From contig JAYELL010000013.1 in the NCBI GenBank assembly GCA_034717495.1, positions 1-64,000 of the forward strand: a stretch of 64,000 nt of DNA. The letters run 5' to 3'. The position numbers were made by a program, and so were the translations under genes. Source of the stretch: Chloroflexota bacterium (GTDB lineage Bacteria > Chloroflexota > Anaerolineae > JAAEKA01). Shown one piece after another: positions 6,355 to 11,204 of the stretch. The stretch's first letter is position 1; every line of letters begins with the position of its first letter. The notes under the pieces are model-generated. The model saw only the letters and a program-made list of their open reading frames with translations. It made no database searches and was not told the origin of the DNA.

Positions 6355-6741
6355 CTGATCGTCAACTGTCAACGGCGTTTCTTTGTTGATTTTACCTCCC
6401 GCTCAGGATCTGGCAGCATTGTCCAAAACAGTAAGGCTAGTAACACGATGATGAGAGGTATAGTCATTTTCCAGGTTCCCTTTCGATGTTTCGCTTCCAA
6501 GGCATGAGCTCGGTAGCGGCGATCAATGGTTTAACGACGCTGTGTCCACCAAGGTTCACATCTCTACAATAACACGACAAGATGAACTACGGATGAAACT
6601 TTTGTTAACATTAGCTTACAATTCTGTAACCTGACGTGGCTGTGCTACAATTGTGGCCATATTGTTGCGTGGCTACAGTACAATCAACACAATCAACGTG
6701 GCGTGCGCCCGTTTTGCAGCATTGGAGTACCTCTCTTTATC
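6355..6741. other. Intergenic region without a gene
   Basis: A stretch of 387 bases, noticeably more AT-rich than its surroundings. It contains several TACAAT hexamers (near 6617, 6646 and 6679) that could serve as -10 boxes for the gene starting at 6742, but none has a convincing -35 at 16-18 bp. No reading frame with coding character, RNA gene or strong hairpin was seen. Confidence 0.5.
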
Positions 6742-7587
6742 ATGAAGGTGACCGTTCGTCTCGGTGAACCACTCTGGCGAGCCACAGGAAGCCTGCGCCA
6801 CCATCTGGAGTTCCCGCAACACGCTGTCAGTGTCGCCGACGTGCTGGCCGGCATGGCGGCGACCTATCCCGATTTCCAGGGGCATGATTTGGCACGACCG
6901 CTGCCCTATCAGGTGTACCTGAACGCGCGCCTCGTGCCCGATGGCGAGGAAGAGACCTGGCAACTGCAGGATGGCGATAGACTCCATATCTTTCTGCCAG
7001 CGGCCGGGGGACAGCGCTCTGTCCTTTCCATGGATTTCTACGCAAAGCCGACGCTCGAGGTTGCGCGCTCGTTATTAGGCCAGCGGTTGGTGAGAAAACT
7101 GGGCGGCAATCGGCTCAGCGGCCGTATCGTCGAAGTCGAGGCCTATATCGGCGAGGATGATCAGGCCTGTCATGCCGCTTGCGGGCCCACCAAGCGCAAT
7201 CGTATCATGTATGGCCGGCCCGGACTTGCCTACGTGTATCTCATCTACGGCATGTACTTCTGTTTGAACGTGGTAACGGAGAACGAGGGGCTTCCGGCCG
7301 CCATTCTGATTCGCGGCATCGAGCCGATCGAGGGGGAAGAAATCATGATGGCCCGGCGTTCGGGCCGGCCTCGCAGCCAAATGACCAATGGGCCGGGCAA
7401 ACTCTGCCAGGCGCTGGCCATCGACCGCTCCTTCGCTGGCCACGATCTCACCGCGGGGACAGCACTGTGGTTAGAAGGAGATCAACCTCTTGGCGATGAC
7501 CTGGTGGTCAGCACGCCGCGCATCAACGTGCGGGGTGACCAGCTAGCCCGCACCATTCCCTGGCGTTTCGTCGTTCGCGGTTTCTGA
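6742..7587 (+). CDS. MoaD/ThiS-like beta-grasp domain fused to 3-methyladenine DNA glycosylase
   Basis: A 281-residue fusion. Residues 1-90 look like a MoaD/ThiS beta-grasp domain: MKVTVRLGEPLW, a YQVYLNARLV strand, then LQDGDRLHIFLPAAGG, ending in the Gly-Gly at 89-90 that terminates free sulfur carriers. Residues 97-281 are an AAG/Mpg-type alkyladenine glycosylase, with ARSLLGQRLVRKL, the catalytic Glu in GRIVEVEAYIG, YLIYGMYFCLNVV and GPGKLCQALAI. That enzyme excises 3-methyladenine and related bases in base excision repair. The ATG at 6742 is the natural start of the first domain; an in-frame upstream GTG at 6703 would add 13 unrelated residues. An internal ATG at 7030 could yield glycosylase alone. 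The 3' end overlaps murJ by 45 bp, tail to tail. Confidence 0.85.
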   Translation: MKVTVRLGEPLWRATGSLRHHLEFPQHAVSVADVLAGMAATYPDFQGHDLARPLPYQVYLNARLVPDGEEETWQLQDGDRLHIFLPAAGGQRSVLSMDFYAKPTLEVARSLLGQRLVRKLGGNRLSGRIVEVEAYIGEDDQACHAACGPTKRNRIMYGRPGLAYVYLIYGMYFCLNVVTENEGLPAAILIRGIEPIEGEEIMMARRSGRPRSQMTNGPGKLCQALAIDRSFAGHDLTAGTALWLEGDQPLGDDLVVSTPRINVRGDQLARTIPWRFVVRGF

Positions 7588-9132
7588 GATAGCGGGGGTT
7601 CGCCGCCGCCGGATCAGATCGGCGATCTCCTGGCGAGCCAGCAGGAACGCGACCGCGCCAAAGACCAGACCGCCAATCACAATGCCAGCCAGGGCTATGA
7701 GCCACGCCGGGAAACCAGCCAGCCGGGGGATCAACCAGAGCAGTACCACCGACATGACAACCGTTGCCAACAGACTTCTTCCCAGGGTTATCACCAGGCG
7801 CCGGCCCCCGAGGCCATTCAGGCGAGGTTTGAGCAACCACAACAGCGCCAGGGTCTCCAGGGTCGTTGCCAGTGTGTTTGCCAATGCCAGGCCACCATGG
7901 GCCAGGGGTCGGATCAATAACAGGCTGAGTACGATGTTCAGTGCCATTGCTATCAGGCCGATGCGCACCGGGGTCCAGGTGTCGTGCAGGGCGTAGAAGG
8001 CGCGAACCAGAATCTCCAGAACACTGTGAGCTACCAATCCGAGGGCAAAGAAGGCCAGCGCATAGGCCGTCAGTTGGGTCGACTCGGCACCGAATTCCCC
8101 GCGCTGCAAAAGGACGGTAATCAATGGGATACGCAGAATCACCAACCCGGCGGCAGCAGGTACCGTCAGCCAGAGCATGGCCCGCAGAACCCCGTTCAAC
8201 GTCGATCGCAGCGAATCGATCATCCCTTGAGCCGCCTGGGCAGAGAGCGTTGGGAAGACAGCCGTGGCGATTCCCTGGGCGATGATTCCCTGCGGCAGCA
8301 ACATCATCAACCAGGCGTAGTTCAAGGCGGAGATGCTGCCCTCCGAGAGATTCGATGCCAGGTTGGCGTTGACCAGAAAGTTGATCTGCACGGCAGCCAA
8401 TCCCAGGACGCGGGGACCCATGAGCCGTCCTACCTCACGCACATCGGGGTCTTTCAACCCAAGAATCGGCTGGTAGATCGGGTGTCGCTGCAACAGGGCT
8501 GATAGCTGGACTAACAGATGGGCAGCCGCACCTGCCACAACACCCAGGGCCAACCCGCGCACACCCATGGTCGGTGCCAGGAAGAGGGCTGCCAGGATGA
8601 TCGCCAGGTTGTACATGATCGGTGCCAGGGCAGGCGCCAGGAAGTGCTGAAAGCTGTTAAGAACACCCATGATGATGCCACTGACGCCAAAGAGTATCGG
8701 CGCGATGAGCATAATGCGCATTAGTTCAGCGGTCAGGATACGCTGCGCCGGATCGAAACCCGGAGCGATTACATGAGCAACCAACCATTCAGCCAGAATG
8801 GCCGCCAGGATTGCCAGCCCCGTGCTGATGATCAGGACCAGGTTGGTGACGGCGCTGGCAAGGCGCCAGGCGTTGACGTGGCGGGGATCACTGTCCCGGG
8901 AGAGGGTAGATGTGAAGGTGGGAATGAACGCCGAGGCCAGCGCGCCGCCGGCCACCAGATAAAAGATCATATCTGGCAGGCGAAAGGCAGCCAGGTATGC
9001 ATCCAGGTCGGCGCCAGTGCCAAACTGCGCGCCAATGACAATCTCCCGCACCAGGCCCAGGAGGCGACTGACGGCGAATAGTATAGAGACGAGTCCGGCG
9101 GCCCGGGCAATCTGGCGGCGGGTGGCTATCAT
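7543..9132 (-). CDS. murJ: Lipid II flippase MurJ (MviN)
   Basis: About 529 residues with some 14 predicted membrane helices. The N-terminus (ARAAGLVSILFAVSRLLGLVREIVIGAQFG) and the GALASAFIPTF and NLASNLSEGSISALNYAWLMMLLPQG segments are diagnostic of MurJ. The protein flips the peptidoglycan precursor lipid II across the cytoplasmic membrane. The ATG at 9132 is preferred because it lies just before the family N-terminus; an in-frame TTG at 9171 would add 13 residues, and neither has a clear Shine-Dalgarno. A perfect TATAAT on the minus strand at 9225-9220 may be its -10 box. The gene is divergent from the peptidase at 9324, and its 3' end overlaps the glycosylase fusion. Confidence 0.93.
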   Translation of the reverse strand: MIATRRQIARAAGLVSILFAVSRLLGLVREIVIGAQFGTGADLDAYLAAFRLPDMIFYLVAGGALASAFIPTFTSTLSRDSDPRHVNAWRLASAVTNLVLIISTGLAILAAILAEWLVAHVIAPGFDPAQRILTAELMRIMLIAPILFGVSGIIMGVLNSFQHFLAPALAPIMYNLAIILAALFLAPTMGVRGLALGVVAGAAAHLLVQLSALLQRHPIYQPILGLKDPDVREVGRLMGPRVLGLAAVQINFLVNANLASNLSEGSISALNYAWLMMLLPQGIIAQGIATAVFPTLSAQAAQGMIDSLRSTLNGVLRAMLWLTVPAAAGLVILRIPLITVLLQRGEFGAESTQLTAYALAFFALGLVAHSVLEILVRAFYALHDTWTPVRIGLIAMALNIVLSLLLIRPLAHGGLALANTLATTLETLALLWLLKPRLNGLGGRRLVITLGRSLLATVVMSVVLLWLIPRLAGFPAWLIALAGIVIGGLVFGAVAFLLARQEIADLIRRRRTPAISETANDETPGNGAG

Positions 9133-9323
9133 CTGGCAGGTGGGCGGGTCCCAGTCCCTGATCAACTGCAATGGAGACTTCTGGTCGATGTAGTCATCTG
9201 TGGTAGACTATGGATCAGGATTATAGCTCAGAGAGTGTAACGAAGGAAATGAACCGCAGGTGGTAGACCCCGGTGATCGAAAGTAGAAACATCGGTTCGC
9301 AAACATAGTGACAGGAGTGCTCT

Positions 9324-10904
9324 GTGAATAAACGAAATGGTCTTGGTATATTGCTGGTAGCAGGCCTGTTGATCGCTGCGTGTACACCCTTGGTGACACC
9401 TACCCCTGGTCCCGTGACTACGGTTCCTGAGCCTGCCTCTGGGAGCCAGTCGAGCCAGCCAGTTGATGAACAGGAATCGGGTGTCGGCGATGGCCAATTA
9501 GCAGCATTGCCCTCCCCGGGTCTTTTCGACGTGAGCTGGCAGGACCGTACCGCTTTCCGTGGCAATCTGCTGGAGGGTCAGCAGGCGGTTCTGGAGACAT
9601 TGCCCGGGGCCAGCGTCTATCACATCGATCTTTCGATCGACGACACGTTGACCAGGGTGGAGGGAAAGCAGGAAGTTCTCTATACCAACCGGGAAGATGA
9701 CCCTCTGGATCGCCTGGTGTTTCGCCTCTTCGCCAACCTGAGCGGTGGTTTAGCCACAGTGTCCAATCTGGCTGTCAATGGTCAGCCGCTGGCGTTCAAC
9801 CTGGAGGGAGAGGAGAGTGTTTTGACCGTGCCCCTGCCTGAGCCACTTCAAACCGGTGATCAGGTCGTGGTCCAGATGGACTTTGCCGTGGAGATACCGG
9901 TCGACGGCAGCAGCAACTATGGAACCTTCGCTTACCTGGACGATGTCCTGGCCCTGGCCCATTTTTATCCCATGGTCGCTGTCTATGATGATAGGGGCTG
10001 GAACGAGGAGATTCCTTCCCAGGCGGGGGATATCGTGTACAACGATGCCTCTCTTTACCTGGTCCGAGCCGATGTGCCGGCGGATCTGCTGGTTGCTGCA
10101 TCAGGATCAATGATTGATCGCGAACAAGTCGGCGGGCGGCAGGTGCTGACCATCGCCGCGGGTCCAGCACGCGATTTTTATCTGGCTGCCAGTCCTCGCT
10201 ACCAGGTGGTTAGCGACACAGTAGATGGCATAACCGTCAACAGCTACGCCTTCCCTGAGCACCAGGAGGGGGCCGAGACCATCATGGGATTCGCCATCGA
10301 GGCGCTGGATAGCTTCAGCGATCGTTTTGGGCCCTATCCATATTCTGAACTGGATTTCGTGGGCACGCCCACCAGCGCGCTGGGCGTGGAATACCCTGGC
10401 ATCATTGCCATGGCAAATCGGACCTATACCAGTGATAACGTGATCGGTCTGGAGGCGACCACGGCTCACGAGGTGGGCCACCAGTGGCTGTACAATGTCA
10501 TCGGCAACGATCAGGTCGGTGAGCCATGGCTGGACGAGGCGATGGTGCAATATGCCACCATGCGTTACTTCGAGGATAGATATGGCAGGGCTGGATACGA
10601 CGGTTTCCGGCAATCGCTGACCGATCGCTGGGGCCGGGTAGGCAATGAGGAGATTCCGATCGGACAGCCGGTTGATGCCTATCCGGGCGCTGCCTACGGT
10701 GCCATCGTCTATGGACGGGGCCCCCTCTTTTTCGAGGCATTGGAGAACGAGATGGGCCGGGAACGGTTCGACTCCTTCCTGCGGGATTACTACGAGGAAT
10801 TCCGTTGGCAGAATGTCGCTGCCGGAGACTTGCGATCCCTTGCCGAGGCCCACTGTGACTGTGATCTGACGGCTCTGTTTGAAGCATGGGTTTACGGCCA
10901 GTAA
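9324..10904 (+). CDS. M1-family zinc metallopeptidase, lipoprotein
   Basis: A 526-residue surface lipoprotein. The signal peptide ends in the lipobox LIAAC (Cys20), followed by a Thr/Pro-rich linker. The zinc site is HEVGH (His382, Glu383, His386) with Glu405 after an 18-residue spacer, the HEXXH-X18-E pattern of M1 aminopeptidases. Upstream GVEYPG replaces the usual GAMEN exopeptidase motif. Residues 90-230 look like the N-terminal beta-saddle domain. The protein should sit on the outside of the membrane and degrade peptides. The GTG start at 9324 follows ACAGGAG. No neighbour suggests a specific substrate. The gene ends directly against a tandem-repeat array. Confidence 0.9.
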   Translation: MNKRNGLGILLVAGLLIAACTPLVTPTPGPVTTVPEPASGSQSSQPVDEQESGVGDGQLAALPSPGLFDVSWQDRTAFRGNLLEGQQAVLETLPGASVYHIDLSIDDTLTRVEGKQEVLYTNREDDPLDRLVFRLFANLSGGLATVSNLAVNGQPLAFNLEGEESVLTVPLPEPLQTGDQVVVQMDFAVEIPVDGSSNYGTFAYLDDVLALAHFYPMVAVYDDRGWNEEIPSQAGDIVYNDASLYLVRADVPADLLVAASGSMIDREQVGGRQVLTIAAGPARDFYLAASPRYQVVSDTVDGITVNSYAFPEHQEGAETIMGFAIEALDSFSDRFGPYPYSELDFVGTPTSALGVEYPGIIAMANRTYTSDNVIGLEATTAHEVGHQWLYNVIGNDQVGEPWLDEAMVQYATMRYFEDRYGRAGYDGFRQSLTDRWGRVGNEEIPIGQPVDAYPGAAYGAIVYGRGPLFFEALENEMGRERFDSFLRDYYEEFRWQNVAAGDLRSLAEAHCDCDLTALFEAWVYGQ

Positions 10905-11072
10905 ACGGGAACAAGGACCAAGTAGACAGGGAACAAGGACCAAGTAGACAGGGAACAAGGAAACAAGTAGACAGGGAACAAGGAAACAAGTAGACAGGGA
11001 CCAAGTAGACAGGGACCAAGTAGACAGGGACCAAGTAGACAGGGACCAAGTAGACAAGGACCAAGGAAACAG
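10905..11072. repeat. Tandem repeat array, 15-bp and 22/23-bp units
   Basis: Immediately after the peptidase stop there are eight copies of AAGTAGACAGG (the last AAGTAGACAAGG). The first units are 22-23 bp (GGGAACAAGGACCAAGTAGACA type) and the last ones 15 bp (GGGACCAAGTAGACA). Units are contiguous, without spacers, so this is a minisatellite-like array and not CRISPR. The following 100 bp contain a related inverse word (TCTACCTGTCT). No coding content is likely. Confidence 0.85.
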
Positions 11073-11204
11073 GTATGCGCTAGCAGTCTGTCAGAAAAAG
11101 ACTTCTCCGACAGCCTGCCAGGCCTTGGTGCATCGGCTGACTTGCGCACTTCCCACTCGTCTACCTGTCTGCATGTTTACTTACCGATGTTACGCAGTTC
11201 TACC

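Follow-up and report, generated by a model that had tools for sequence, protein, structure and literature searches.

The gene at positions 6742..7587 (+, stop codon included) of the window, the whole 64,000-nucleotide stretch of Chloroflexota DNA that was analysed, encodes a protein of 281 amino acids in which a MoaD/ThiS-like domain is fused to an alkyladenine (3-methyladenine) DNA glycosylase, AAG. Comparison with other genomes of the class, in which the same in-frame architecture recurs, confirmed that the fusion is genuine and not a frameshift artefact. The same comparison indicates that the fusion is the rarer state and an adjacent gene pair the usual one. The original prediction of a pairing of these two domains thus stood as regards the fusion; it had missed the prevalence of the gene pair and the place of the domain in a distinct MoaD subfamily, which also occurs without AAG. 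The reading favoured here, with a probability of about 0.42, is that the protein is a carrier or ubiquitin-like precursor with AAG as its C-terminal passenger, which would be cut after a conserved Gly-Gly, as in MoaX.

The fusion gene and its two parts

The frame is open from 6742 to 7584 (281 codons) and is closed by a stop codon at 7585-7587. An in-frame GTG is present upstream, at 6703; homologues nevertheless align from the ATG at 6742, so that the coordinates first given to the ORF are correct. A search of the 5.0-Mb genome with the fusion protein found no second match besides its own gene.

Amino acids 1-90 (6742..7011, +) correspond to a MoaD/ThiS-like ubiquitin-fold domain of a subfamily hereafter called GEPLWR, as judged from the Pfam ThiS profile, the predicted beta-grasp model, Foldseek and the subfamily alignment. 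The ThiS profile (PF02597) matched amino acids 24-90 with 26.6 bits in the whole protein and 29.9 bits in the domain alone (cut-off 22.5), and 44 of 47 GEPLWR subfamily members matched it at E ≤ 0.01. The AlphaFold2 model of the full-length protein (alignment of 41 relatives, mean pLDDT 89) had a beta-grasp for amino acids 1-87, with the strand and helix order of this fold over residues 2-84. Foldseek, run with the domain alone, gave matches to MoaD, SAMP1 and Urm1 (E ~1e-5 to 1e-4, TM ~0.75-0.8). The proposal that the first 90 residues are a sulfur-carrier or ubiquitin-like domain with a beta-grasp fold was thus borne out by profile, model and structural search alike. The fusion protein did not reach the cut-offs of the NCBIfam models SAMP1 (NF041918; 18.0 vs 60 bits) and moaD_arch (TIGR01687; 16.3 vs 49.5 bits).

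The domain ends in Gly89-Gly90 (codons GGG GGA, 7006..7011, +), presumed from the conservation of the motif in relatives to be the point of cleavage or activation. The motif stands where free carriers end, as had been recognised earlier, and standalone relatives mostly stop exactly there. In the primary product it is not a free C-terminus, since 191 residues follow it, and a free carrier C-terminus would therefore require cleavage. Residues 88-90 fall in a linker of low pLDDT, which is presumably flexible. Between the Gly-Gly and the AAG core are the seven residues QRSVLSM (7012..7032, +), the corresponding linkers of other fusions being of 8-11 residues and, in one genome (G276), of 37 residues.

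The AAG domain (amino acids 98-281; 7033..7584, +) was aligned to human AAG structures with E ~1e-42. The Pfam profile Pur_DNA_glyco (PF02245) matched amino acids 98-280 with 221 bits (cut-off 27) over profile positions 1-179 of 181; this near end-to-end match, starting at amino acid 98, agrees with the full glycosylase that had been placed seven residues after the Gly-Gly. The active-site equivalents E133, Y135, H144, Y164, Y166, N176 and R191 are all kept; as their human counterparts we take E125, Y127, H136, Y157, Y159, N169 and R182. These alignments confirm that the fusion carries a complete AAG, active-site residues included.

A convergent gene for a MurJ-like lipid II flippase (7543-9171, -) overlaps the 3' end of the fusion gene by ~45 bp, and MurJ is also close to AAG in many relatives. 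Elsewhere in the window, downstream of an M1-peptidase-like gene, short tandem repeats are present at 10892-11149 (-; in translation, repeats of 'LSTWSLSTWS' or 'CLLGPCLLGP').

Fused, adjacent and standalone carriers in the class

A domain profile was searched against 396 sampled genomes of the class (Anaerolineae). The distinct MoaD-like subfamily with the motif G-[ED]-P-L-[WR] near its N-terminus was found in 49 of them. The lowest carrier score was 61 bits, against 57 bits for the best MoaD outside the subfamily, so that the set has no sharp boundary at G339. The carrier gene is separate, on the same strand and immediately upstream of AAG, touching or overlapping its start, in 21 of the 49 genomes, and fused to AAG in seven; one carrier lies ~0.65 kb upstream of AAG (G054), 19 are standalone with no same-strand AAG near, and one is at a contig edge (G142). 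Pairing or fusion with AAG is found in 29 of the 49 carrier genomes, in eight family-level groups.

The in-frame architecture of the window is present at 50-60 % identity in G005, G030, G056, G219 and G034, of which G005 (60 %) belongs to the same family as the window genome and G034 is Anaerolineae SSC4 (CP059258.1). A further fusion, with the long linker, is that of G276. The search for the architecture elsewhere, which had been proposed with the original prediction, thus gave six other genomes of the class; with the window genome the total is seven, in six family-level groups, which rules out a frameshift or assembly artefact.

In G168 and G082 the domain has a gene of its own, which abuts or overlaps the start of AAG with its end (TGAATG; CATGACTAA), and overlaps such as CATGA or TGAATG are frequent among the neighbour pairs. 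The fusion was probably derived from an adjacent gene pair. When 58 AAG domains were placed on a tree, about six changes were required to account for the fused label, and starred branches force four or more of these. The fusion thus arose, or was undone, repeatedly, gain and loss not being distinguishable on this tree.

Both the domain and AAG are constrained, the domain less so, dN/dS in close pairs being 0.10-0.51 for the domain and 0.06-0.27 for AAG (Nei-Gojobori). In G124 and G159 (loci L189 and L193) AAG is 96 % identical (dS 0.17) and the domain only 59 % identical (dS 1.0), a contrast that points to recombination between them. AAG without the carrier domain is common in the class. In G004, of the same family as the window genome, AAG begins with MQFTARPNEPIRRPAGDG (L098, rc 4028), which looks like the domain's first strand and motif and is a possible remnant of it after an internal deletion. 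Outside the class, none of six carrier genomes in the phylum sample had AAG inside the available flanks (up to 1.5 kb); other phyla were covered by a single pattern-based contig scan, a method not sensitive to the N-terminal domain.

Conservation of the Gly-Gly motif

The Gly-Gly is retained in 19/19 standalone, 21/21 AAG-adjacent and 6/7 fused carriers, Gly-Val replacing it in the fusion of G034 (SSC4). Of the standalone carriers, 17/19 end exactly at the motif; residues follow it in 16/21 of the AAG-adjacent carriers, which have 0-7 extra residues and in one case (G294) a longer tail. This pattern may be read at two levels. At the protein level, the Gly-Gly may remain the cut and activation point. 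At the DNA level, its codons may be kept partly as the ribosome-binding site of AAG: in neighbour pairs they frequently read GGA GGN and stand only a few bases ahead of the start of AAG, so that a motif of the protein may at the same time serve ribosome binding. GGAGGN codons of a terminal Gly-Gly just before the next start were seen in L103 (rc 6610-6621), L189, L186, L193 and others. GGA encodes the first of the two glycines in 11/22 neighbour pairs, compared with 3/19 standalone carriers (Fisher p = 0.046, uncorrected for relatedness). In the fusions the first codon is never GGA and the Gly-Gly is nevertheless kept, which favours a protein-level role, as far as seven cases go.

Carrier, peptidase and E1-like genes in the genome

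Six ThiS/MoaD-family matches were found in the genome. A separate gene on contig C81 encodes a MoaD-MoaE fusion which, as a molybdopterin synthase, would need a cut after its internal Gly-Gly, by analogy with MoaX (PMC4326299). On contig C23 a JAMM peptidase gene (C23:40701), a carrier gene and a rhodanese-ThiF E1 gene stand close together; no dedicated E1 or JAMM gene adjoins the fusion gene, both being on C23 in the window genome. The C23 carrier (L208:2457-2747, G000:C23) is CysO-like and ends GGSFQEPH beside the E1 start. In its counterparts from other genomes of the class (L116-L120, L124) the Gly-Gly is followed by W, R, S or 32 residues, and in that of G056 the frame runs on for 417 residues and holds E1. 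Extensions of this kind appear to be ordinary in the class and are presumably removed by JAMM; a C-terminal tail after the Gly-Gly may be a general feature of the carriers of the class. No JAMM match was found in the carrier genomes G023 and G018, in which the carrier ends at the Gly-Gly.

Association with aldehyde:ferredoxin oxidoreductase

In two family-level groups (f39 and f60) the standalone carrier gene adjoins that of an aldehyde:ferredoxin oxidoreductase (AOR), a pyridine nucleotide-disulphide oxidoreductase being also present at the locus in f39. AOR was found in 49/49 carrier genomes and in 255/347 others (Fisher p = 2e-6, uncorrected for relatedness). This co-occurrence and adjacency make a tungstopterin-related carrier origin of the subfamily plausible. 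The carrier is dispensable for AOR, since G002-G004, of the same family as the window genome, have AOR and lack the carrier. A molybdenum cofactor gene neighbourhood was not seen around the AAG-linked genes, whose outer neighbours vary (MurJ, subtilase, SDR, ABC transporters). AAG-family enzymes remove aldehyde-derived etheno-adducts and, with AOR in all carrier genomes, a link of carrier and AAG through aldehydes may be speculated upon.

Discussion

Ubiquitin has its prokaryotic relatives in the carriers of the MoaD/ThiS/SAMP type, for which most of the known fusion partners are enzymes of sulfur or cofactor pathways. We know of no AAG with an N-terminal beta-grasp domain. A 2006 survey of prokaryotic ubiquitin-like proteins described fusions to ThiG, MoaE, sulfite reductase, AOR, E1 and Mut7-C, a glycosylase fusion being absent from it (PMC1779556). 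A literature search, with most subscription papers outside its reach, brought up no paper that joins 3-methyladenine with molybdopterin converting factor and no description of the pairing. Carrier fusions as such are known; the DNA glycosylase is the unexpected partner.

In the favoured mechanism, a MoaD-like sulfur-carrier or ubiquitin-fold protein would be made as a precursor with AAG as passenger. A JAMM-type peptidase would cut after Gly90, giving a carrier with a C-terminal Gly-Gly and a normal AAG, and E1/MoeZ could adenylate and thiocarboxylate the released carrier. Co-translation would fix a 1:1 supply of the two, and a benefit of joint production is presumed. Cleavage after the Gly-Gly is plausible from its conservation, the presence of JAMM and E1-like genes and the precedent of MoaX of Mycobacterium tuberculosis, in which a cut between Gly82 and Ser83 is needed for activity (PMC4326299). 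The precursor reading is further favoured by the strict retention of the motif in neighbours and fusions, where it is no longer C-terminal, and by its position in the low-pLDDT linker. The other carriers with post-Gly-Gly extensions and the MoaD-MoaE fusion in the same genome point the same way, as do the ends of the standalone members, mostly exactly at the Gly-Gly as expected of a working carrier, and the tight pairing of the carrier gene with AAG, with recurrent fusion. Against it stands the Gly-Val of G034, the equivalent last-Gly mutant of MoaX being cut yet non-functional (PMC4326299). The possible part played by the Gly-Gly codons of neighbour pairs in ribosome binding, the two carrier genomes with no JAMM match, and the choice of AAG as passenger, which the model does not explain, also weigh against it.

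MoaX and the Deinococcus MoaD-MoaE protein DR2607, which is cut by DRJAMM (PMC8832034), likewise have an N-terminal MoaD domain, an internal Gly-Gly and a second enzyme directly after it; in those proteins, however, the passenger is MoaE and cutting has been shown, whereas here it is a DNA glycosylase and cutting is predicted. The CysO/Mec+/MoeZ and SAMP1-JAMM systems share the fold, and the JAMM and E1-like enzymes are present here beside a different Gly-Gly-tailed carrier; the fusion gene, in contrast, is outside the JAMM/E1 cluster and its product below the SAMP1 and moaD_arch cut-offs. Like the MoaD of tungsten AOR operons, the standalone subfamily members of f39 and f60 stand beside AOR, whereas none of those linked to AAG does. 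The glycosylase is like other AAG/MPG glycosylases (PF02245), with a full-length domain and the catalytic residues kept. Eukaryotic ubiquitin-ribosomal protein fusions and SDE2, a DNA-replication-stress protein whose cleavage depends on PCNA (PMC5131917), also have an N-terminal ubiquitin fold, which is released from a passenger; the protein described here is bacterial and of the MoaD/ThiS branch, and the likeness is one of analogy only, the passengers not being homologous.

The main rival, which we consider somewhat unlikely, is that the beta-grasp domain stays attached to AAG as an accessory or regulatory part (partner docking, stability or substrate search), its carrier role being lost, and acts as a separate subunit in neighbour pairs. 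HR23, which carries a ubiquitin-like domain, offers a loose parallel. It enhances the activity of human AAG/MPG (PMC4666366). Adjacency recurring over eight family-level groups, together with recurrent fusion, argues for a protein-level link, and the loss of the Gly-Gly in G034 and the domain dN/dS below 1 in close pairs are also in line with permanent attachment. The domain, however, evolves faster than AAG and has a different history in G124 and G159, AAG is common in the class without it, and G004 has a short possible remnant only. Permanent attachment would moreover leave the conservation of the Gly-Gly unexplained, unless the motif is structural or a ribosome-binding site.

Less probable again is a neutral by-product, in which the GGAGG-like Gly-Gly codons serve as a ready ribosome-binding site that leads to gene packing, and loss of the stop codon then gives fusion without functional consequence. 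The excess of GGA first codons in neighbour pairs, the frequent overlaps and the free variation of the tail sequences are as this would predict, but pairing or fusion extends to more than half of the carrier genomes (29/49), often with differing outer neighbours, both parts are intact in fusions of 50-60 % identity, and purifying selection acts on both in close pairs.

It is improbable, too, that the GEPLWR protein, once freed from AAG and activated by E1, would return to AAG or its partners as a conjugate or sulfur carrier and tune repair, perhaps in an aldehyde response of bacteria in which AOR operates, as a bacterial ubiquitin-like system dedicated to base-excision repair. Least credible is the suggestion that the fusion gene makes the carrier and that AAG is also made separately, by internal translation from the in-frame ATG at 7030..7032 (+; Met97): this codon stands where free AAG proteins begin, but the nearest purine-rich stretch is ~18 nt upstream of it, with no Shine-Dalgarno at normal distance in the window, a conserved equivalent is lacking in other fusions, and 4/7 fusion linkers (G005, G219, G034 and G276) have no ATG, GTG or TTG between the Gly-Gly and the AAG core, which rules out an internal start as a general means of freeing AAG.

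With this pairing, bacteria may offer a new case of a ubiquitin-like precursor that carries a passenger protein. The natural series of standalone carriers ending at the Gly-Gly, neighbours with a tail after it and fusions would allow a test in E. coli of whether such carriers can be produced as cleavable precursors with unrelated passengers. Provided that they are functional, the recurrent gene pair and fusion would link a bacterial ubiquitin-fold protein to DNA repair by way of the glycosylase.
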